The position numbers and the translations under genes are program-made. The notes under the pieces were generated by a model, which did no database searches, was not told the DNA's origin, and saw only the letters and a list, made by a program, of their open reading frames with translations. A stretch of DNA of 64,000 nt from Collinsella sp. An7 (lineage in GTDB: Bacteria; Actinomycetota; Coriobacteriia; Coriobacteriales; Coriobacteriaceae). Location: positions 62,001-126,000 of the forward strand of contig NZ_NFHP01000007.1 in the NCBI RefSeq assembly GCF_002159335.1. Direction: 5' to 3'. Shown piece by piece: positions 11,412 through 35,917 of the stretch. Every line of letters begins with the position of its first letter. Positions within the stretch are counted from its first letter, which is position 1.

Positions 11412-12137
11412 TTACGCCTCGTCGGCCTTGTTCTCCTGGGTCTGCGCGGGTGCCTCAAAGCGATAGCCCACCCCGTGCACGGTGTAGAGCCACTTGGGAT
11501 GCTTGGGGTCATCGCCCAGCTTGGCGCGGAGGTTCTTTACATGCGAGTCGATGGTGCGCTCGTAGCCCTCAAAGTCGTAGCCGAGCACCTTCTCAACGAG
11601 CTCCATGCGGTTGTAGACGCGGCCCGGGTGCCGGGCGAGCGTGGCGAGAAGCTTAAACTCCGAGGCGGTGAGGTCGACGTCCTTGCCGTCCACCAGAATC
11701 TTGTGGCCCGAGATATCGATCACGAGCTCGCCAAAGTCGAGCACGTCGACCTCGGGCTCGGCATGGGCACGGCGGAAGATGGCGCGCACGCGGGCCACGA
11801 GTTCGCGCGGCGAGAACGGCTTGACGATGTAGTCGTCGGCACCGAGCTCGAGGCCGATGATGCGGTCCTCGACCTCGCCCTTGGCGGTTAGCATGATGAT
11901 GGGCACCGCCGAACCCTTGTCGCGGATAATCTTGCAGACGCGCTCGCCCGAGAGCTTGGGGAGCATAAGGTCGAGGATTACAAGATCGAACTTGTGCTTC
12001 TCGAACTCGTCAACGGCGGCCTTGCCGTCGCCCACGCCCACGACCCAATACCCCTCGCGGTCGAGATACGCCGCCACGGCGTCGCGGATAGCCTTCTCGT
12101 CTTCAACCAAAAGAATGCGCTTTGCATCTGAAGCCAT
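11412..12137 (-). CDS. Response regulator, OmpR/PhoB family
   Basis: A 241-residue DNA-binding partner of the kinase downstream. The receiver domain (residues 1 to about 120) has the acidic pocket VEDE, the phosphorylated aspartate in DLVILDLMLP (D56), the threonine in MLTAKG and the lysine in YIVKPFSP. The winged helix follows, with LTASEFKLLATLARHPGRVYNR and the recognition region YERTIDSHVKNLRAKLG. The C-terminus has a short extra tail. The ATG at 12137 has AGGAGG upstream. A TACAAT element at 12176-12181 (minus strand) is a candidate -10. Confidence 0.95.
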   Translation of the reverse strand: MASDAKRILLVEDEKAIRDAVAAYLDREGYWVVGVGDGKAAVDEFEKHKFDLVILDLMLPKLSGERVCKIIRDKGSAVPIIMLTAKGEVEDRIIGLELGADDYIVKPFSPRELVARVRAIFRRAHAEPEVDVLDFGELVIDISGHKILVDGKDVDLTASEFKLLATLARHPGRVYNRMELVEKVLGYDFEGYERTIDSHVKNLRAKLGDDPKHPKWLYTVHGVGYRFEAPAQTQENKADEA

Positions 12138-12314
12138 GGTCGGCCTCCTGTCCTACCGTCAAATGAGCCTCACACATTGTACCGCACGGAGCGATACACG
12201 GGCCGGCCGCTTGCCGGCCGGGAGCATTTGCGCCGCGTAGCGGCACTGTTGCCGCGCCGGGCGCGCTCCACTCGGCTTATTATGCCCACTCGTGCGCAAT
12301 TTGTTTCGGACGGG

Positions 12315-12415
12315 TGAGAATAGGGGGACGGGTGCGTTTTTCTCAGTTTTGGGAATATGGGGCCAGGCCCCATATTCCCAAAACTGAGAAAAACGCACCC
12401 GTCCCCCTATTCTCA
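12315..12415. repeat. Palindromic repeat, GGGGAC family, copy R2 (50-bp perfect arms)
   Basis: A 101-bp perfect palindrome with two 50-bp arms around a single A at 12365. Each arm starts with a 31-bp unit (12315-12345 and its inverse 12385-12415) in which TGAGAA and TTCTCA can pair around the core GGGGGACGGGTGCG. The inner 19 bp of each arm (GTTTTGGGAATATGGGGCC) is specific to this copy. It ends 1 bp before the stop codon of the Tat lipoprotein gene, so its transcript would form a very strong hairpin there. Confidence 0.92.
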
Positions 12416-12416
12416 C

Positions 12417-13733
12417 TTACAGGTCAAAGACGCGCGCTGTTACGCTCTCGGGGATGCCCTGGGCGTTGCGGATGGTCGCAAACGAGAGAAAGCGGTCGAC
12501 GATACCCTCGCTCGCGGGCCAGTCGCCGTAGTCGACGCTGCGGTCGGGCGCGCCCAGGGTCGCGTAGGTCTGGGCCTCGATATCGACCACAAAGTGTGAG
12601 GTCTGCGCCTTAACGAGGTAACGCGAGCCCTTCCCCGCCACGCAGGCGAGCGGCTCGCGGCGCACGTAGACGTACGGCCCGCCCTCGCGACCGATGAAAG
12701 TCCCCATGTTGCCGAGGCTGCCGCGGCCGTCGTAACTCGCCTCAATGGAGAAGGCAAACTGCTCGTTCATATAGACGGCCTCAAAGGGGGCCACACCGCT
12801 CGGCAGTACCAGTTGATCGCGCTTGGTGTTGTTGCCGTCGGTAAGGTCGAGCGCGGTAAGCCCGTAATAGGTGCCCTCGTCTTCTTTGACGCGCGGGGCG
12901 ATAGTGAGGATGCCGTCAGCCACCCGCGGGGCGGTGGCAAAGCGCCCATGCGAGACCATGAGCTCGGTGCCCTCCGTCTCGCCCACCGACCACTGGTAGC
13001 AGTGTGAATCCTCCGAGCTGGCGTTGCCCGTGGCAAGCGGCATCTTCTGCCAGATCACGCTCGTGTTCCACGTGGTAAAGCGCGGCGGCTCCCAGTCGAT
13101 GCTGCCCGAGTCGAGCTGTACAGGCTCGCCTGCAAGGTCACCACCCGAGAACGCCTGGCCCACGAGCACCCAATCACGCGTGGCGTAGTCGATCTCTACC
13201 CAAGCGTAAACGCTGTCGGTGCAGCGCACGTCATAAAACTGCCAGGTCTGCCCTTGCGTAGGCGCGTCGAGCACGGTGCTGAGGTTGCCGCTCGAGAGGC
13301 TCAGGGCGCCGAGGGTATTCACATGCTGCGACGATTCCGGCGTAAGCAGCGCCGCCGCCCAGGTGCCGCCCGTATGAAAGAGCAGCGTGCCGAGCGGCAG
13401 GGTAAAGGTCTGACTCGCGGTGTAGGGACAGTCGGCAGCCTCGTAGTCGCCGTCGAGCACGGCCACAACCTGCGAGTCGTCGACCACCTGCGGGTCGCCT
13501 GTGGTCTCTTTGACCTCGCCCGACGAGCACGACGAGAGCGAGATGACCGCCATGCCCGCGCCGATGGCGGCGGCGCTACCGAGCGCAAAGCTCCGGCGCG
13601 TCACCCCGCGGCCAAAGAGGCCGTGCCCGCCCGTGCCCTGACCGGCAGCACCCTGGGCAGCGACACGCTCCCCCTCCCGCCGCGGACGAGTTGACCCGCG
13701 GCCCGCGTTTCGTATGCGCGAGAAGAAGCCCAT
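12417..13733 (-). CDS. Tat-exported lipoprotein of unknown function
   Basis: A 438-residue secreted protein. The N-terminus is long and basic, then the twin-arginine motif TRRSFALG, a hydrophobic helix and the lipobox-like LSSCSSG, so it is probably exported folded by Tat and lipid-anchored outside. The mature part is rich in Trp, Tyr, Ser and Thr with repeating strand-like segments, which could be a beta-propeller; I see no catalytic motif and do not recognise a family. The ATG at 13733 starts right after the TSCPD gene stop, so the two are co-transcribed. Palindrome R2 abuts its stop codon. Confidence 0.8.
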   Translation of the reverse strand: MGFFSRIRNAGRGSTRPRREGERVAAQGAAGQGTGGHGLFGRGVTRRSFALGSAAAIGAGMAVISLSSCSSGEVKETTGDPQVVDDSQVVAVLDGDYEAADCPYTASQTFTLPLGTLLFHTGGTWAAALLTPESSQHVNTLGALSLSSGNLSTVLDAPTQGQTWQFYDVRCTDSVYAWVEIDYATRDWVLVGQAFSGGDLAGEPVQLDSGSIDWEPPRFTTWNTSVIWQKMPLATGNASSEDSHCYQWSVGETEGTELMVSHGRFATAPRVADGILTIAPRVKEDEGTYYGLTALDLTDGNNTKRDQLVLPSGVAPFEAVYMNEQFAFSIEASYDGRGSLGNMGTFIGREGGPYVYVRREPLACVAGKGSRYLVKAQTSHFVVDIEAQTYATLGAPDRSVDYGDWPASEGIVDRFLSFATIRNAQGIPESVTARVFDL

Positions 13734-13735
13734 GG

Positions 13736-14002
13736 TTAGGCGCGGGCCTCGGCCTGCGCGGCGTCGAGCGCGTGGCAGAGCTGGTCGGCGCAGGAGGTGG
13801 GCCGGACCCCGCAGGTGTTGCCGCGGAGGATGCCCGTCACCTCGCTCACGGTGCGACCGGTCACGAGCTTAGAGACGGCCTTGAGGTTGCCGTTGCAGCC
13901 GCCCACAAACGAGCAGCCCTCGATGGTCTGACCATCGTCCGACAGGTCGACGTGGATGTTGCGCGAGCAGACGCCCTGCGGCGTGTAATCGATCGAAATC
14001 AC
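13736..14002 (-). CDS. TSCPD domain protein
   Basis: An 88-residue protein of the small TSCPD family, a domain also found at the end of some B12-dependent ribonucleotide reductases. Typical segments are YTPQGVCSRNI, GGCNGNLKAVSKLVTGR and the cysteine-rich CGVRPTSCADQL; the conserved cysteines suggest metal or Fe-S binding, but the role is unknown. The start is a GTG at 14002 preceded by GGGGAGGA. It is the first gene of a two-gene unit with the Tat lipoprotein. Confidence 0.85.
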   Translation of the reverse strand: MISIDYTPQGVCSRNIHVDLSDDGQTIEGCSFVGGCNGNLKAVSKLVTGRTVSEVTGILRGNTCGVRPTSCADQLCHALDAAQAEARA

Positions 14003-14268: not shown

Positions 14269-14955
14269 TTAGTTCTGGGTCGTGGTGGCCTCAAACAGGT
14301 CGGGGGTGGTCCAACCGTCGGGCACCGCGCCGGTCTTTCCGTCGTAGCCGAGGTCCTGGACCGTCCAGCCCTCGGGCACGCCGCCCTCGCCCTCCCAGGC
14401 GCCTACCTGGTGGCAGGTCGCGCAGGTAAAGACGCTCTGGTCGTGCATACGGTGGCAGGAGTTGCACTGCTGCACGCCGTGGTAGGTGCTGTGCGGGTCG
14501 AAGCTGAGGTCGGCCGTGGAGCTCTCGGTAGCGCCGGGGAGCATGCCGCCACCGGCGTGGCAGCCGCTCTGCAGGCAGAACTCGTTGGAGAAGCTCTCCT
14601 TGGCCAGCGGGGTGCTGTAGCTACCCGAAAGCTGGGCCTGGATCTGCGACGCCATCTGGCCGAGCGTCTGCTCGTGGCAACCGAGGCACTGGTTGTCCAC
14701 CACGCCCTTGTGGGCGTAGGCGAGCGACGTGGTGTCGTTCTCAAACGAGTCGTAGTACTTGCCCATGGTGTTGTGGCAGAGGCTCGAGCAGAACTCCGGG
14801 GTGGCGCGCCACGCCCAGCCTGCGACGCCGAGCACCGTGACAACCACGACGGCGGCGATCACGATGGGCAGGCGCTTAGCCTTCCAGCTGCCCTTCTTCT
14901 TGGGAGCGGTTGCGGTGGCCTGGGCCTCCGTACCCTCCTTCTTCTCTTCAGCCAT
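14269..14955 (-). CDS. Membrane-anchored pentaheme cytochrome c, NapC/NrfH-like
   Basis: This 228-residue protein has one N-terminal membrane helix (about residues 28-48) after a Lys/Ala-rich cytosolic start, then an extracytoplasmic domain with five heme-attachment motifs: CSSLCH, CLGCH, CLQSGCH, CNSCH and CATCH. Two are unusual, the first CX3CH and the third CX4CH. Such cytochromes usually carry electrons between the quinone pool and an external oxidoreductase. It is the last gene of the AOR operon, 21 bp after the AOR gene on the same strand. I infer that it links the AOR/ferredoxin pair to membrane quinones; direction is not known. The last 40 residues lack cysteine and contain repeated DGWT/EGWT segments. 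Confidence 0.85.
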   Translation of the reverse strand: MAEEKKEGTEAQATATAPKKKGSWKAKRLPIVIAAVVVVTVLGVAGWAWRATPEFCSSLCHNTMGKYYDSFENDTTSLAYAHKGVVDNQCLGCHEQTLGQMASQIQAQLSGSYSTPLAKESFSNEFCLQSGCHAGGGMLPGATESSTADLSFDPHSTYHGVQQCNSCHRMHDQSVFTCATCHQVGAWEGEGGVPEGWTVQDLGYDGKTGAVPDGWTTPDLFEATTTQN

Positions 14956-14976: not shown

Positions 14977-17220
14977 TTAGGCGAGCGCCGGGTTGTCGCC
15001 GCAGTACTCGGACAGGACACCGGCGTAGGTGCGGGTGCGCTCGTCGTAGGACTTCCCGCCCTCGGTAAGGAGCCCGAGCTCCTCGAGGTCGGCGGCAACG
15101 TCGTCGAGGCCGAGGTCGGTGAGGCACTCCTTGGTGGGGCAGCCGAGCTCGGAGTCCCAACCAAAGCGCTCGTACATCATGGTAAGAGCGGTCTGCCAGT
15201 CGTCGCGATCCATCTTGTCGGTGCCGGCGGTAAAGGCCTCGATCTCGGGGTCCTTGGTAAAGACCCACTCGGTGATGGTGTCGTGGACGTTGCGGAAGTC
15301 GTTGCAGCCCATCTCACCGTCGGCGTTCTTCATGCCGCGGGCGGTGTTGGCGCGCTGGAGCGTCATGATGCGCTCGGCGGCCTTGTAGAGGTCGTCGATG
15401 GTGACCTCCTGGCCGGTAACGGCGGTGTAGAACTGCGCCTCGAGGTCGAGGTCGCCGCGGTAGCTGCGCTCCTTAGCGGGCGCCATGGCCATCGGCCACA
15501 CCCAGTTGCAGAGCGTGAGCGAGTCGTGCAGGACGTCGGTGACGATGCTCCACCACGCGAACTCCGCCTTGTACTCGTTCATCGGCGTATAGTTCTTGTC
15601 GGCGTCGATGGCCTCCTCGGAACCCCACATCTCGGCAGCCATCTGCTTCTTGAGGTCGATGGGCAGGCCGCAGCCCTGGAAGTTCACCGCGGAGTGGATC
15701 ATGTCGTCGCGGTTGAAGACCATGTTGTAGAGGCCGCCGACCTGGCCGAAGCACTCGATGGCGTGGTGGACGGGCCAACCGCGGTAGTTGATGAGGCACG
15801 ACTTGGCGGTGTCGAACCACTCCATGTCGTTCCAGTCCTTGCACCACACGATGGGGCCGTGGCCGAGCTTGGAGATCTTCTTCTCGTTGGAGGAGATATC
15901 AACCAAGATGTGCACCCACTCAGCCGGGTTGGTGCCCGCAAGCAGGCCCTCCCAGTCGTAGGTGGCAAACTCGTCGCCGAGCTCGCGCTGGAGGATGCCC
16001 TCCTTATAGGTGTGGGCGAGGTCGCGGTAGAGCTGTGCGTAGTTGCACCACAGACCGAGGTCGTCAACCGTGGCGGACACGACCTGGTTGTAGATGACGG
16101 ACTGGTTGGTGAGCGTACCGTCCTCGGTCTTCATACCGTCGATGTCCTGGATGGTCAGGAAGTACGAGGTGACCGGGAAGTTGGGCACGCAGGTGTTGCC
16201 CGAGGACTGGTAGCCGGTGGCGTCGTAGACCTCCGGGACCTGGACCTGCGAGTAGCAGCGCACCGGGCAGCCGTGGCAACCGGCCATCTTGACGGTGTAC
16301 TTCTCGGCCGCGGGGCCCATGTCCTTGGTGGACTTCATGCAGCGGTAGCCCATGGTGTTGGGCTCGAAGGGCTTGGGCTCGCCGGTCTCGATGGGGCCGC
16401 CCTCGGCAGCCGCCCAGTAGAGGCCCTTGCGCGCCGTCCAGCGCGAGCCGGAGTCGTAGTACTCGGCCCAGGACTGCTGGGTGGAGGGAACCACGTGGTT
16501 GTTGTTGGAGCCGAGGACCTGGGCGATCATGTAATCGGAGAGGTCGGCGACCATCTGCGGGTCGGCCACGTTAACAGCCTTGGAGCCCTTGACCACAACG
16601 GCCTTGCACTTCTTGGAGCCGAGCACCGCACCGAGGCCAGCGCCCGCGGAGTGGCTGCGGGTGTTCATGACGCAGGCGTAGGGCAGCAGGTTCTCGCCCG
16701 CCGGGCCGATGGCGGCGACGCAGGCCTCAAGGCCGTGCTTCTCGCACAGGGCCTCGGTGACCTCGCGGGTGCCCTTGCCCCAGAGGGCGGAGGCGTCCTC
16801 GATCGAGATGTTGTCGTCGTCGATGAGGATGTAGACCGGCTTGTCAGAGGCGCCCTCGATGATGAGGCCGTCGTGACCGGAGTACTTAAGCATGGCGCCG
16901 AGCTGACCGCCGCAGTGCGCGTCGACCACGAGGTGATCCGTGGTGAACGTGGAGAGCGTGGCCCAGGTGGAGCGGCCGCCCAGCGGCACGCCCGAGCCCG
17001 TCAGCGGGCCGACGGCGAGAACGGCCTTGTTCTCGGGGTCGGACCACTCGGTGCCGGCCGGCACCTCGTCGTACATGATCTTGTTGGCAAAGCCCATGCC
17101 GCCGATGTAGTCGGCCTGCATGGCCTCGTCGGACTCGACGGAGATATCGCCCGTCGAAAGGTTGACGCGCGCGATGTAGCCCGCCCAACCGTAAGAACCG
17201 AAGATGGCAGTATCAGCCAT
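14977..17220 (-). CDS. Aldehyde:ferredoxin oxidoreductase family enzyme
   Basis: A 747-residue member of the tungsten- or molybdenum-pterin AOR family, which oxidises aldehydes to acids or runs the reverse reaction. The N-terminal domain starts with GWAGYIARVNLSTG and GGMGFANKIMYDEV. The [4Fe-4S] ligands are in CHGCPVRC plus a late cysteine in LTLCNWVWP. It is longer than classical archaeal AOR (about 600) and lacks a signal peptide. The neighbours are a Tat-exported four-cluster ferredoxin (17 bp upstream) and a pentaheme cytochrome (21 bp downstream), resembling the Escherichia coli ydh cluster more than a cytosolic AOR-ferredoxin couple. It may be carried through Tat by its partner; that is inference. 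Substrate unknown. Confidence 0.9.
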   Translation of the reverse strand: MADTAIFGSYGWAGYIARVNLSTGDISVESDEAMQADYIGGMGFANKIMYDEVPAGTEWSDPENKAVLAVGPLTGSGVPLGGRSTWATLSTFTTDHLVVDAHCGGQLGAMLKYSGHDGLIIEGASDKPVYILIDDDNISIEDASALWGKGTREVTEALCEKHGLEACVAAIGPAGENLLPYACVMNTRSHSAGAGLGAVLGSKKCKAVVVKGSKAVNVADPQMVADLSDYMIAQVLGSNNNHVVPSTQQSWAEYYDSGSRWTARKGLYWAAAEGGPIETGEPKPFEPNTMGYRCMKSTKDMGPAAEKYTVKMAGCHGCPVRCYSQVQVPEVYDATGYQSSGNTCVPNFPVTSYFLTIQDIDGMKTEDGTLTNQSVIYNQVVSATVDDLGLWCNYAQLYRDLAHTYKEGILQRELGDEFATYDWEGLLAGTNPAEWVHILVDISSNEKKISKLGHGPIVWCKDWNDMEWFDTAKSCLINYRGWPVHHAIECFGQVGGLYNMVFNRDDMIHSAVNFQGCGLPIDLKKQMAAEMWGSEEAIDADKNYTPMNEYKAEFAWWSIVTDVLHDSLTLCNWVWPMAMAPAKERSYRGDLDLEAQFYTAVTGQEVTIDDLYKAAERIMTLQRANTARGMKNADGEMGCNDFRNVHDTITEWVFTKDPEIEAFTAGTDKMDRDDWQTALTMMYERFGWDSELGCPTKECLTDLGLDDVAADLEELGLLTEGGKSYDERTRTYAGVLSEYCGDNPALA

Positions 17221-17236
17221 TGCGTATCTCCAATCT

Positions 17237-17959
17237 CTACGCGACGTGCCCGCCGCCGACGTAGTCCTGCTGCTCGCTCACGAGCGGGTACGGATTCTCC
17301 TGACGGGTGGGGCCAGACGAGTGGCTCACATCCTCCCACTCGATGAGCTCGATGGCGCCGTTGGGGCACTGCGCGGCGCAGCGACCGCAGGCGACGCACT
17401 TGGCGGACTTGCCGGTAACGGTGTTGACGCGCGGCATGTCGTAGGGGCAGGCCGTCACGCAGGCACCACAGCCGACGCACTTGTCGGTGTTGACGACGCG
17501 CACGCCGTTGTCGTTGGTCTCGATGGCGCCGTGCGGGCAGGCCGTCTGGCAAAGCGCGGTCTTGCACATGTAGCAGGTGCGGACGTTCCACTCCATGGAG
17601 TAGTAGATACCGTCGCCCGAGCCGAGCTCCTTGCCGTAGTTGTAGCCGTCGTGCACGTGGATGCGCGCTGCGGCCGGCTGGGACACGCCGTCGAGCGCGA
17701 GCGTGCAGGACATTTCGCAACGCTGGCAGCCCGTGCAGCGGGAGCGGTTGACCTTGAGCACGTGAGACGGCGTGGCGTAGTAGTCCACATCGCCCATCGA
17801 GCTCGTCGGCGTGGCCGCCGCCTCCTCCGGGAGCAGGCCGAGCGCCACCATGCTCGCCACGAACGCGCCGGAAACCTTCACGAACCCGCGACGGGTGAAG
17901 AAGGATTCGAGGCGGTCCGCGCCCGAGCCCACCAGCTCTGTGGTGGTGTTCTCTTTCAT
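17237..17959 (-). CDS. Tat-exported 4x[4Fe-4S] ferredoxin-like subunit
   Basis: A 240-residue electron-transfer subunit of the HybA/NrfC/YdhX type. The Tat signal is TRRGFVKVSGAF followed by a hydrophobic stretch ending near EEAAATP (about residue 50). Four cluster motifs follow: CTGCQRCEMSC, CYMCKTALCQTACP, CVGCGACVTACP and CVACGRCAAQCP. In related complexes this subunit wires the catalytic protein to a membrane quinone-reactive subunit, here probably the pentaheme cytochrome. The ATG at 17959 follows GGGAGGGAACT. The LuxR-type operator at 18132-18148 lies about 175 bp upstream. Confidence 0.92.
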   Translation of the reverse strand: MKENTTTELVGSGADRLESFFTRRGFVKVSGAFVASMVALGLLPEEAAATPTSSMGDVDYYATPSHVLKVNRSRCTGCQRCEMSCTLALDGVSQPAAARIHVHDGYNYGKELGSGDGIYYSMEWNVRTCYMCKTALCQTACPHGAIETNDNGVRVVNTDKCVGCGACVTACPYDMPRVNTVTGKSAKCVACGRCAAQCPNGAIELIEWEDVSHSSGPTRQENPYPLVSEQQDYVGGGHVA

Positions 17960-18131
17960 AGTTCCCTCCCCTACTGGTTACGGTGGCAGGCACCACCGTG
18001 TGATGATATGACGTGCGCACTGGCGAAAGCGCGCATTACGCCGCGTATCATTGTCGCCTCGCCGCGCGCGCAGACCTCACCTGCTTCCGGGTAATTTGCA
18101 CACTTTGTGGCGATTTGCCTAGACGCGTGTG

Positions 18132-18148
18132 TCACCTGTTTTGGGTGA
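18132..18148. promoter_or_regulatory. Candidate LuxR-type operator 1, upstream of the AOR operon
   Basis: TCACCTGTTTTGGGTGA matches, with one change, the reverse complement of the perfect palindrome at 19863-19879 beside the luxR gene. The arms TCACC/GGTGA surround a T-rich spacer. A weaker variant, TCACCTGCTTCCGGGTAA, lies at 18077-18094. The 17960-18242 gap holds no gene. Confidence 0.7.
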
Positions 18149-18242
18149 GGTGATGCCCTGACCTGCGGTGGAGGCAGTTGGTGACGACAGGGCCCGTCGA
18201 GCGCGCGCAAAAGCGGAGCAGCTCGCGGCCGCCGTCCGATTC

Positions 18243-18833
18243 CTAGATCTCGCCGGCCTCGCGGAGCTCTTGGTCCACGCGGCTGTCGCGCAGCGAGCAG
18301 TTCTCGGTGAGCATGCAGGGCACGCTCAGGCGCACGCACGGCAGCACCTCGTCGAGTTCGGCCAGCTTGAAGTTGCGCACCCGGAGGTAGTAATCGCCCA
18401 CCAGGGCGCGCACTGCCTCGAGCGCAAAGATGAGCGTATAGCAGCGGCTCGCAGGCAGCGGCCCGGTGAGGGCGGTGATGTCATCCTCGGTGATGGCGAG
18501 GGCCTCCTCTATGGTCTTACCGCGCAGAAGCGTTGCCACGGCCGTGGCGCAGGCGATGGCTGCAAGGCACCCGTGGCTGCGGAAGCCCACCTCGCCAAAG
18601 GCGCCCGTCTGGGGATCGGCAACGGCAAAGAGCTGCATTTGGACCGTGCCGCGCTTCTCCTTGCCCACGCTCGCAAACACGTTAGCGCCCTCGGGGATTC
18701 CGCCGTTGGCGGCGTCAGCAATGAGATCGATGGTGCGCTTGTCGTACTCCGAGATGGGGGCGTCGCGCTCGATCTGGTACATGTCGGGCGTACGGAGGAA
18801 GGGCGTGTCCTCGGTCAGGTGGTTTTTGGGCAT
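18243..18833 (-). CDS. NifU/IscU-like iron-sulfur scaffold protein
   Basis: A 196-residue protein related to the scaffold on which [Fe-S] clusters are built before transfer to apo-enzymes. The core resembles IscU/NifU-N: GFRSHGCLAAIACATAVATLL, where IscU has its second cysteine region, then KTIEEAL and a helix with ALEAVRALVGDYY. The expected first cysteine region reads GEVGFRSHG, and other cysteines are at SRCYTL, LPCVRL and VPCMLTENC, so ligands may differ from canonical IscU. It is about 50 residues longer than usual. It lies between the AOR operon and the unknown gene 18909-19805, same strand, and may mature their many clusters. Confidence 0.75.
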   Translation of the reverse strand: MPKNHLTEDTPFLRTPDMYQIERDAPISEYDKRTIDLIADAANGGIPEGANVFASVGKEKRGTVQMQLFAVADPQTGAFGEVGFRSHGCLAAIACATAVATLLRGKTIEEALAITEDDITALTGPLPASRCYTLIFALEAVRALVGDYYLRVRNFKLAELDEVLPCVRLSVPCMLTENCSLRDSRVDQELREAGEI

Positions 18834-18908
18834 GGTTCTCCTTGGTCTGCTGATGGGCGGCGTTCTCTATTCTAAACGTACGGCTGGACCTCGGGTCCCC
18901 GCGGCTTG

Positions 18909-19805
18909 CTAGGGGTTGCGTTGGCGCTCTACGGCGGCCCATTCTGCCAGCGATTTTGCCTGCGCTTCGCTTAGGTAGAGATCGGAGTAGTAGAAGGCGA
19001 CCCCGTTGCTTGCATGGACCTCGTGGATGTCGTTGAACGAGCCCGCCTCCTGCACTTTGCCAAAGACCTCGCGCGTGTGGGCGCGCGACCAGAGATACGG
19101 CGGGTTCATGAGGCTGTCGATGCCCACGGGGCGCGGGTAGGTGCTCGACTCGGTGCGGATCACGTCCACAAAGGTCGCGACGTCGTTATCCTCGGCGGTG
19201 TGATAGAGCGCCTTGGCAAAGCTGTGCGAGAGCAGGGCCACCGAGTAGAGATAGGTGGCCTTTTTGCCCTGTATGAGGGCAATGTCGGTAACCACAGGCT
19301 CAGGAAGCGGATCGTCCTCGGTAAGCTCCTGCCCCTCGAGCTCCACGTCGAGTGGCTTGGGCGCTGCCACACGGCCCATCACGGGCTTGGCCTCGGCGTG
19401 CTCGTGCGCGGCGAGGTACTCAAGGAGCACCGCCTCAAACTCCTTGGCCGTCATGCCCTCGGGTGCCACGGGGCGCTTGCGCCACCGCGCCGTAGTGGTG
19501 AGCTTGCCCTCGTACGAGCGCTGACGCACGTCGGTGAAGGCTGCGTCGAGCGCCCGGATCAAAGCGTTGCGGGCGTGGATAGCCTCTCGTTCCTCGGGCG
19601 TGAGCTCGGACTCGGCGGCTTCTTCTGCCGCCCCTTCGGGGGCACCGGGCTCCCCTTCTGTGTCAGCCGGCACCGTTTGGCCCGCTGTCTCGACCGTCCC
19701 TGCAACACCCGCCGCTGCCGCCCGGGCACCGACTGACGCACCCGGCGCTGCGGGCGGATCGGGCGCGATGTCCTCCACAGGCGCGTTCTTGTCTTGCTGC
19801 TGCAT
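18909..19805 (-). CDS. Conserved-looking protein of unknown function in the AOR cluster
   Basis: A 298-residue protein without signal peptide or membrane helix. The first 70 residues are Ala/Pro/Glu-rich and probably disordered. After a charged segment with TARWRKRPV and EAVLLEYLAAHEHAEAK, the C-terminal half (about 165-298) looks folded: KKATYLYSVALLSHSFAKAL, SSTYPRPVGIDSLMNPPYLW, NDIHEVHASNGVAFYYSDLY, then SLAEWAAVERQRNP. No cofactor motif is visible. Its place beside an AOR and a Tat ferredoxin recalls the uncharacterised YdhW of the E. coli ydh cluster; I cannot verify homology. It is divergent from luxR with an operator between them. Confidence 0.7.
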   Translation of the reverse strand: MQQQDKNAPVEDIAPDPPAAPGASVGARAAAAGVAGTVETAGQTVPADTEGEPGAPEGAAEEAAESELTPEEREAIHARNALIRALDAAFTDVRQRSYEGKLTTTARWRKRPVAPEGMTAKEFEAVLLEYLAAHEHAEAKPVMGRVAAPKPLDVELEGQELTEDDPLPEPVVTDIALIQGKKATYLYSVALLSHSFAKALYHTAEDNDVATFVDVIRTESSTYPRPVGIDSLMNPPYLWSRAHTREVFGKVQEAGSFNDIHEVHASNGVAFYYSDLYLSEAQAKSLAEWAAVERQRNP

Positions 19806-19862
19806 GGCCCCTCCTCTGCGCGAGTTTGCTGCGAACCAGTGTAATACAAGGTATACTCGGTA

Positions 19863-19879
19863 TCACCTAAAACAGGTGA
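19863..19879. promoter_or_regulatory. Candidate LuxR-type operator 2, between luxR and the AOR-cluster gene
   Basis: TCACCTAAAACAGGTGA is a perfect inverted repeat (6-bp arms, 5-bp spacer). A TATACT box at 19852-19857 lies just before it on the + strand, so the site would overlap the luxR transcription start. For the minus-strand gene the site lies 58-74 bp before the ATG, near where LuxR-type activators bind. Its one-mismatch copy is at 18132-18148. Confidence 0.75.
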
Positions 19880-19919
19880 CTGGTTGGTTTACCAGCTGCT
19901 AGAGGAAGGGGCGACCAGG

Positions 19920-21566
19920 TTGAACGTACCGAGTGAGGAGCCGCGCGGCACCGACCGCACGCTCGTCCCCGTGATTGCGGGCCTGGCCTGCTCCGCCGTA
20001 TCGTTTGCCCTCGTGGTGCAGCAGGGGCGCCTTACCGGGGCCTCGCCCGCAGCCAATGGCCTTGTTACCCTTGTGGTGTGCCTTGCCGCTGCTGCTCTGG
20101 CCCTCATCAGCATGCGCGTCGGCCGCCTTGCCAAGCGGGCCGTGTTTCTCATCACGTTTATCGCCATCCACATCGCGGGCATCGGGGCGCTCGGACTCAC
20201 CTTTCTTGATGTTGCCGGGGGCGACGCCCCCGCTTTTCTTACCGGCGCGCTCGAGGCGCTGAGCGGCACGGGAAGCGTCCTTCTTGCGTTCTACTGGCTA
20301 CGCAAGCTGCGCGCCGCCACGGCAGACGCCACCGCACTCGTGGCGTTCTCTGCCCTTATGGTGAGCGCCGTGCTCGTTGCCGTGCTCGGCATCTTGGGGC
20401 CCGCCGTGCGACACCTCGCTGCCTTTGCGCTCTCGTTTGCCCAGTTTGCGATCACACGCGCCTCGCGCCGGCACGACGCCCCCGGCGAGGTGCGGCCCGC
20501 GCAGCCCGGCGCCTACTTTGGCACCGGCGAGGCCCGCTACTCCGACCGCGGCTATCTCGCCACCGCGCTCATCGGCGTGTGCGGCATGGCGCTTGCCGCC
20601 GGCGTGGCCGAGGCGCTCACCCCGCCCACCGCGGGGGACCCGCTTGCAGAGGTGCTGCGCCGCCTCGTTTCGCTCGTCTGCGCCGGCGCGGCCGCCTTCT
20701 GCGCCCTCCGGCACGCCCGCTCACACTCCGAGCGGCCGCTCGCCCCCGAGCTCTGGATCGCCCTCGGGCTCTTTGTGGGGGTCGGAACCGTGCTGCTCTC
20801 GCTTGGCGGCGAGGCGGCGTTTGCGGGCGGCTCGGTCGCCACCGCGGCTGCGCTTTTGCTGCAGGCGATGGTCTCGTACCTCTCGGTTGCCTTTGCGAGC
20901 TTTGGCGCGCGCGACCCCTACGTCTACGCTGCGGTTTCGTGGGTCGCCCTCAATGCCTGCCAGGTGGTGGGTACCGACCTCGGCTATCTGGTGGCGGCTG
21001 CCGCGCCGGGCAACCTCGCGCCCGCCATCGCCGTAATGGGCCTCTGCGCCCTTGCGTCCACCCAGGTCGTCTTCTCGCAGCTCATGCGCGACCCTGAGCG
21101 CACCGTGGTGCTCTCCGACCTCGAGGAGGGCAATCTGCCCGAGCGCATCACCCCGAGCACCATCGTGATCGCCGCCTCGATTGAGCAGGCGCTGCTCGAG
21201 GCGGACGGGTCGGCAGGCGACGCGTCCTCCGAGGCTGTGGGCGCTGAGCCTTCGGCTTCCCCCACCCCCGTCGATATCGCCACGGACGGCAGCAATACCT
21301 CCGCAGCCCCCACGCCGGCCCCTGTCGCCAGCCCGGAGGTGCATATCGCCACCTCCGTCATTTCCATGGGCCAGCGCTTCGGCCTCACAGGGCGCGAGAT
21401 CGAGGTCCTCACGCTCTATGCGCTCGGCCACACCCAGGCCCGCGTGAGCGAGGAACTCCACCTCTCGCAGAACACCGTGCACACGCATATCAAGCGCATC
21501 TACGACAAGACCGATCTGCACTCCCGCCAAGAGATTCTGGACTATCTCGCCGAGTACGAGGGTTAG
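19920..21566 (+). CDS. LuxR-family regulator with polytopic membrane domain
   Basis: A transcription factor of about 548 residues. The first roughly 390 residues form about 10-12 hydrophobic helices, a layout typical of Coriobacteriia membrane-tethered regulators. A Ser/Ala/Pro-rich linker follows, and the C-terminal LuxR/GerE helix-turn-helix is GLTGREIEVLTLYALGHTQARVSEELHLSQNTVHTHIKRIYDK in sequence segments (last 65 residues). The start is uncertain: TTG at 19920 has AGAGGAAGGGG upstream and TTG at 19884 is the alternative. It is divergent from the AOR-cluster gene and flanked by an operator that recurs before the AOR operon, so it is the likely regulator of that cluster. Confidence 0.85.
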   Translation: MNVPSEEPRGTDRTLVPVIAGLACSAVSFALVVQQGRLTGASPAANGLVTLVVCLAAAALALISMRVGRLAKRAVFLITFIAIHIAGIGALGLTFLDVAGGDAPAFLTGALEALSGTGSVLLAFYWLRKLRAATADATALVAFSALMVSAVLVAVLGILGPAVRHLAAFALSFAQFAITRASRRHDAPGEVRPAQPGAYFGTGEARYSDRGYLATALIGVCGMALAAGVAEALTPPTAGDPLAEVLRRLVSLVCAGAAAFCALRHARSHSERPLAPELWIALGLFVGVGTVLLSLGGEAAFAGGSVATAAALLLQAMVSYLSVAFASFGARDPYVYAAVSWVALNACQVVGTDLGYLVAAAAPGNLAPAIAVMGLCALASTQVVFSQLMRDPERTVVLSDLEEGNLPERITPSTIVIAASIEQALLEADGSAGDASSEAVGAEPSASPTPVDIATDGSNTSAAPTPAPVASPEVHIATSVISMGQRFGLTGREIEVLTLYALGHTQARVSEELHLSQNTVHTHIKRIYDKTDLHSRQEILDYLAEYEG

Positions 21567-21575
21567 GGCAGCAAA

Positions 21576-21651
21576 TGGCTCATTTGGGGACGGGGTTGTT
21601 TTGCACCATTTTTGAAAATGGTGCAAAACAACCCCGTCCCCAAATGAGCCA
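21576..21651. repeat. Palindromic repeat, GGGGAC family, copy R3
   Basis: A 76-bp palindrome with perfect 37-bp arms and a two-base centre. The outer part reads TGGCTCATTT, then the family core GGGGACGGGGTTG. It fills the gap between the convergent luxR (stop 10 bp away) and asnB (stop 22 bp away), where it could serve as a bidirectional terminator. Confidence 0.92.
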
Positions 21652-35840: not shown

Positions 35841-35917
35841 TGACTCATTTTGGGACGGGGTTGTTTTGAGTCATGTGCGTCGGGTGACTCACAATAACCC
35901 CGTCCCAAAATGACGCA
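35841..35917. repeat. Palindromic repeat, GGGGAC family, copy R4, inside the fab operon
   Basis: Two inverted 33-bp units, 35841-35873 and 35885-35917, flank an 11-bp centre. In unit 1 TGACTCA pairs perfectly with TGAGTCA around the core TTTTGGGACGGGGTTG; unit 2 has one stem mismatch and small core changes. It starts 1 bp after the fabH stop and lies 21 bp before the fabK start, so its hairpin could tune the transcript downstream of fabH. Confidence 0.88.

Follow-up and report, generated by a model that had tools for sequence, protein, structure and literature searches.

Candidate operators shared by a membrane LuxR regulator gene and a YdhV-family oxidoreductase operon in Collinsella

Genes and palindromes of the luxR/AOR locus

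We analysed a 64,000-nt stretch of the Collinsella sp. An7 genome (the window), in which a luxR gene lies near an operon that begins with the gene for a putative Tat-signal ferredoxin (tatFd) and encodes an aldehyde ferredoxin oxidoreductase (AOR) homolog (Table 1). The AOR scored 978 bits against the YdhV family NF007354, exceeding the cut-off of 868. The product of the gene divergent from luxR reached 113.7 bits against NF007411, below the curated cut-off of 203, and is therefore called only YdhW-like. The tatFd product matched 4Fe-4S families, carried an N-terminal RR motif seen by eye, and resembled PRK09898 distantly, below the cut-off. With the AOR above the YdhV cut-off and the YdhW and PRK09898 relatives distant, the locus was classed as a Coriobacterial locus related to the E. 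coli ydh operon, and the enzyme as a class V WOR.

Table 1. Genes and sequence elements of the luxR/AOR locus, in window coordinates
Feature	Coordinates	Strand	Description
438-aa protein	12417..13733	-	No family match; syntenic, possibly in the same operon as AOR
TSCPD-domain protein	13736..14002	-	Syntenic, possibly in the same operon as AOR
Multihaem cytochrome c, Cgr1-like	14269..14955	-	Family matches
AOR, YdhV-family aldehyde ferredoxin oxidoreductase homolog	14977..17220	-	PF02730, PF01314
tatFd, putative Tat-signal 4Fe-4S ferredoxin	17237..17959	-	Fer4 families; first gene of the AOR operon
Candidate −10 GACAAT of the tatFd/AOR promoter	18050..18055	-	xAxAAT after site B in 26/26 luxR+ genomes
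Site B	18077..18093	-	TACCCGGAAGCAGGTGA in operon sense; putative promoter-proximal operator of the Tat-ferredoxin/AOR operon
Site A	18132..18148	-	TCACCCAAAACAGGTGA in operon sense (TCACCTGTTTTGGGTGA on +); putative upstream operator of the Tat-ferredoxin/AOR operon
NifU_N-domain protein	18243..18833	-	PF01592; downstream of the YdhW-like gene
YdhW-like protein, 298 aa	18909..19805	-	Divergent from luxR; conserved beside luxR
Near-invariant 20-mer	19838..19857	.	AGTGTAATACAAGGTATACT on +; candidate overlapping divergent −10s: TATACT (luxR), TACACT (ydhW-like operon)
Gap operator (putative)	19863..19879	.	TCACCTAAAACAGGTGA on +, TCACCTGTTTTAGGTGA on -; between luxR and the divergent ydhW-like gene
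luxR	19920..21566	+	N-terminal domain modelled as 12 TM helices with an MFS fold, followed by a linker and a GerE HTH; PF00196, AlphaFold2 model, fold matches

For luxR we chose the TTG at 19920 as the start codon, an upstream TTG at 19884 being possible. The product scored 48.1 bits against the LuxR-type HTH family PF00196 (cut-off 23.5); besides GerE, Pfam returned only a weak match to sigma-70 region 4, and the N-terminal autoinducer-binding domain of canonical LuxR proteins was not among its matches. An AlphaFold2 model built from 23 orthologs (mean pLDDT 81.8) consisted of twelve long helices (residues 12–389), a low-confidence linker (~390–470) and a C-terminal HTH, the GerE domain covering about residues 470–548, so that 10–12 N-terminal transmembrane (TM) helices are predicted. 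The helical part matched MFS transporters by Foldseek (E 1.7e-5) and by VIA-align (Z up to 27.6, rmsd 3.7 over 339 residues), a likeness that in itself demonstrates neither transport nor sensing, and a ligand pocket would be a presumption from the model. These features are fitting for the Coriobacterial 10–12-TM LuxR family to which DadR, HcdR and CadR belong. The first-pass annotation suggested that the membrane domain may respond to a compound akin to the AOR substrate, which is plausible judging from the transporter-like fold and the precedents of DadR, HcdR and CadR. Elsewhere in this genome (G000:C12, ~11.1–13.9 kb; L140), an 888-aa open frame encodes two tandem TM-GerE modules in one protein.

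Two 17-bp palindromes differing by one mismatch had been noted in the first-pass annotation, one in the luxR gap and one upstream of tatFd, and both were found where it had placed them, at 19863–19879 and 18132–18148. The pattern TCACCTGTTTT(A/G)GGTGA occurred exactly twice in the 2.37-Mb genome, both times at the luxR/AOR locus. Apart from these two copies, a genome scan for the 17-mer, which had been proposed as a check, gave no match with fewer than three mismatches, and the three genome matches with three mismatches were at about the level of the reversed-pattern control. In the window, three matches with up to three mismatches were found versus 0.02 expected in shuffles. The copy previously described as a weaker third version, site B, proved to be real: its distal half differs from the other two copies, and on a profile of orthologous sites it scored 24.1, similar to the others (24.6 and 26.1), the next window match scoring 11.3. 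The training set of this profile included the three sites of the window itself, so the stronger evidence is the conservation at fixed spacing in other genomes. The idea of a shared operator was supported and refined to three sites, of which the one called weak is promoter-proximal and is the best-placed copy for the AOR operon promoter.

A broader pattern, TMMCC-N6-AGGKGA, was found at eight places in this genome, namely the three sites of the locus and five scattered ones. The scattered matches were close to the control (four), hence no further regulon member is claimed; one of the five fell within the coding sequence of the double TM-GerE protein.

The window also contains two perfect intergenic inverted repeats, at 12314–12416 and 21576–21651, with arms of 51 nt and 37 nt and loops of 1–2 nt. 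Both carry a similar GGGGACGGG-type sequence, of which a further partial copy lies at 35851–35868. A CCCCGTCCCC-like sequence, resembling these long inverted repeats, was seen upstream of tatFd in three orthologous loci (L006–L008).

Conservation of the sites and promoter geometry

In 14 orthologous loci, from GTDB genomes whose titles name Collinsella or another member of the Coriobacteriaceae, the operator was recognisable at the tatFd promoter in all and at the gap in most. Among 65 Coriobacteriaceae genomes, luxR was present in 26 and YdhV in 30, all luxR genomes having YdhV. Of the 26 luxR+ genomes, 12 of which had no part in building the profile, all have site B at the tatFd promoter and 25 have site A, versus no site above the profile threshold in any of the four YdhV+ luxR− genomes. 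Fisher's test of this contrast gave P 3.6e-5, a value that overstates the evidence because the four luxR− genomes are one clade and the contrast is one event. Matches with at most one mismatch numbered 15 in Coriobacteriaceae, all at the luxR/AOR locus. This genome specificity and the presence/absence pattern both argue for a locus-specific form of the simple regulon that had been anticipated.

Linkage to luxR was not needed for the sites to be kept. In genus g5, luxR and the AOR operon are on different contigs and the sites are retained, strongly in G166 and G180. In two further g5 genomes with the same unlinked arrangement (G201 and G086) the half-sites are altered, and both share the changes A507Q, N518S and R526H (window luxR numbering) in the DNA-binding domain; altered sites together with an altered domain are suggestive as a single case of co-variation. 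Across luxR orthologs, the GerE domain is nearly invariant and the membrane domain diverges. In the L006–L008 loci, TCACCTGTTTGAGGTGA occurs twice, which means that the 17-mer at separate promoters shifts in step within a genome.

The spacing at the tatFd/AOR promoter is likewise conserved. The end of site B lies 21 nt from the xAxAAT element in 22 of the luxR+ genomes and 22 nt in four, and site A is 54–57 bp upstream of site B in 24. Because of this 21–22-nt distance, site B would be centred near −42, which is the position of a class II activator, if xAxAAT is the −10 element. In the luxR− clade, another conserved sequence stands at the tatFd promoter. It includes CATAAT, which is nearer to a consensus −10, and in these four genomes (L115–L118) the alternative region reads TTTATTCAGGCATAATTGAAC or close variants.

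In the gap between luxR and the ydhW-like gene, the near-invariant 20-mer is better conserved than the operator itself, with at least 19 of 20 bases matched in 22 of the 26 luxR+ genomes and a distance of 5–6 nt from the operator in most. TACACT, the candidate −10 of the ydhW-like operon, is a weak match, and overlapping divergent −10 elements do not fully explain the middle bases of the 20-mer. We considered the 20-mer as a second operator, presumably for a GntR/YtrA-like protein, and dropped this, since it is single-copy in the four genomes scanned that have it and no GntR gene was found among the shared neighbours compared; we therefore keep to overlapping promoter elements as its reading.

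With the −10 elements so placed, the gap operator would stand at about −40 for the ydhW-like operon and at the luxR start site. The divergent ydhW-like/nifU operon fits as a further target, sharing the gap site. In four luxR+ genomes (G036, G046, G070 and G183) the gap operator is degenerate or undetected, which indicates that the conserved core is the control of tatFd/AOR and does not include autoregulation. Autoregulation is thus the weakest part of what the first-pass annotation put forward, and the position of the gap site would suit a role in activating the divergent operon and perhaps in repressing luxR.

Dyads at other membrane LuxR genes

Outside Coriobacteriaceae, motif matches were found only in G111 and G277, of one Eggerthellaceae genus, near a GerE gene, and this led us to test the upstream regions of TM-LuxR genes for dyads. 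The test covered 120 such genes from two Eggerthellaceae genomes (80 of G111 and 40 of G059). It counted dyads of the form TCA-N3-N5-N3'-TGA that broke no more than one of nine constraints and lay between −150 and +30 of the gene start, gene starts being first-start-codon guesses. The outer TCA was fixed beforehand by the Collinsella motif, and the position window and mismatch limit were chosen on the G111 discovery half, which gave 11 dyads versus ~0.7 expected from base shares. The held-out half of G111 gave 4 versus 0.29 expected (P 2.4e-4), and G059 gave 6 versus 0.39 (P 3.4e-6). In each of these three sets, TCA was the top or joint top among the 64 outer triplets. Altogether 20 of the 120 genes had a dyad, versus six matches at 252 other ORFs, some of them other TM-LuxR promoters; under this strict rule no dyad was found at 100 of the 120. 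CCTN5AGG was not enriched upstream of the Eggerthellaceae TM-LuxRs, the common part being the outer TCA/TGA, and a GTTTY spacer was dropped from the general operator as most held-out sites were without it.

Individual loci gave further observations. At L167 (G111:C1:988000-998000), TCACCTGTTTTAGATGA at 992191–992207 lies 51 bp upstream of another TM-LuxR, which is divergent from a gene for a Tat-signal FAD-type reductase. A palindrome with a shorter spacer is shared by TTCACCCCGTGGGGTGA at L180 (−113) and TTCACCCCGAGGGGTGA at L236 (−61), upstream of TM-LuxRs of two genomes that both have K-T-H-V-R helices.

The inner bases of the dyads appeared to be linked to the recognition helix. TCACAT-N5-ATGTGA with at most one mismatch was present at 5 of 11 genes with R-x-H-[SA]-K helices versus 0 of 103 with other helices (post hoc P 3e-6). 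A search for this palindrome across 60 Eggerthellaceae genomes served as an independent check and found it at 25 places, versus two for the reversed control pattern. Fifteen of the 25 belong to genera that include neither G111 nor G059, and nine of these adjoin a GerE gene. In six of the nine the site lies −13 to −170 bp from the called start, and the other three fall within ORFs, where the start has probably been called too far upstream; five of the 15 have no nearby GerE gene and one (L281) is ambiguous. At the first helix position all nine adjacent regulators carry R (P 1e-4), and R-x-H-[SA]-K is complete in six of them (P 5e-5; both values on background frequencies). We lean towards the view that one operator architecture is common to the Coriobacterial 10–12-TM LuxRs: a 17-bp dyad, TCA...TGA at its ends, in which residues of the recognition helix determine the inner bases. 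On this view, R-x-H-[SA]-K would read TCACAT and the H-x-H-I-K helix of the window LuxR would read TCACCT/TACCCT.

Proposed control, alternatives and known systems

As a whole, the sequence data are best explained if the adjacent 12-TM LuxR uses the three dyads (19863, 18132 and 18077) as its operators and activates the tatFd/AOR operon, and we consider this very probable. The case for binding by LuxR is built on presence/absence, unlinked retention and the family-wide pattern: that the membrane LuxR is the binder, as had been proposed, is likely, with sites that track luxR across genomes, persist when unlinked, and have family-wide counterparts linked to the recognition helix. We infer binding, activation, a ligand and the direction of autoregulation in the following scheme. 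The N-terminal transporter-like domain would bind a small ligand connected with the YdhV-family enzyme's substrate, and the GerE domain, probably as a dimer, would bind DNA at half-sites that read AGGTGA or vary from it, for example AGGGTA and AGGGGA. LuxR would occupy site B (~−42) of the tatFd/AOR promoter, where the −10 is poor and the site overlaps the −35 region, and would recruit RNA polymerase in class II fashion with help from site A, which lies 55 bp further upstream. Relative to the ydhW-like/nifU operon, the gap site is similarly placed. It would probably switch on this operon together with the enzyme, and at the likely luxR start site it may dampen luxR.

LuxR could bind the same sites and mainly repress, with relief by the ligand, since on the luxR strand the conserved TATACT has the gap site just downstream, and luxR would be blocked by a protein bound there. 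We judge this improbable, because site B is upstream of the candidate −10 and start and not over them, an activator position, because luxR+ promoters have a poor −10 and the luxR− clade a better one, and because characterised family members are activators (PMC9734109). A still different protein could use the sites with luxR as a bystander, such as the OmpR-type response regulator at 11412–12137, which is syntenic with the operon in many genomes, or a global regulator. This seems very unlikely: the response regulator is retained in luxR− genomes, which are without the sites, a global regulator is at odds with only two exact copies in the genome, and dyads of the same build stand at unrelated TM-LuxR genes. 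Small hairpins could form from the 17-bp dyads, yet it is barely credible that RNA or DNA hairpins serving as leader structures or terminators, and not protein operators, account for the palindromes, given the 17-mer at separate promoters changing in step within a genome, the fixed spacing to the −10, and the lack of a T run after the sites as read by eye.

If the sites are operators of LuxR, the defined operator and promoter would provide a reporter for the regulator's ligand, which should point to the substrate of the YdhV family; class V WORs have no assigned physiological function and no known substrate (PMC13328260). With family-wide dyads, the regulons of further TM-LuxRs could be approached in gut bacteria that metabolise drugs and polyphenols, and if the shared-operator reading is true, scores of one-component regulators with a transporter-like sensor could be matched to promoters and enzymes from sequence. 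In E. lenta, 83 TM LuxRs have been counted (Dong et al. 2022, PMC9734109), and over 98% of 10–12-TM LuxR clusters are without assignable function (PMC9734109). A term search of the text of PMC9734109 returned no operator and no MFS or fold assignment for TM LuxRs, and neither was found for the 10–12-TM family in the open-access papers searched.

The E. coli ydhYVWXUT operon is regulated by FNR, NarL and NarP, as cited in PMC3688515, which places an FNR site at −42.5 in the ydh promoter. The window locus resembles it in encoding a homologous enzyme and in having a putative activator site at about −42, close to the −42.5 of FNR. The two systems differ in gene content and in using FNR with a two-component system versus a one-component membrane LuxR. 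NarL has a GerE-type HTH as well. Canonical quorum-sensing LuxR combines a GerE HTH with a palindromic 20-bp lux box overlapping the −35; the window system resembles it in the HTH and in a palindromic site overlapping the −35, but has a 12-TM transporter-like predicted sensor, no matched autoinducer-binding domain, and a 17-bp dyad. Also among the closest parallels are DadR, HcdR and CadR of E. lenta, which activate catechol dehydroxylases (PMC9734109): like the window LuxR, they combine an N-terminal 12-TM domain with a C-terminal GerE HTH, occur in Coriobacteriia and are encoded beside a metal-dependent redox enzyme. An operator and an MFS fold, neither found for them in the text of PMC9734109, are proposed here for the window LuxR, whose putative target is a YdhV-family (class V WOR) operon in place of a catechol dehydroxylase.
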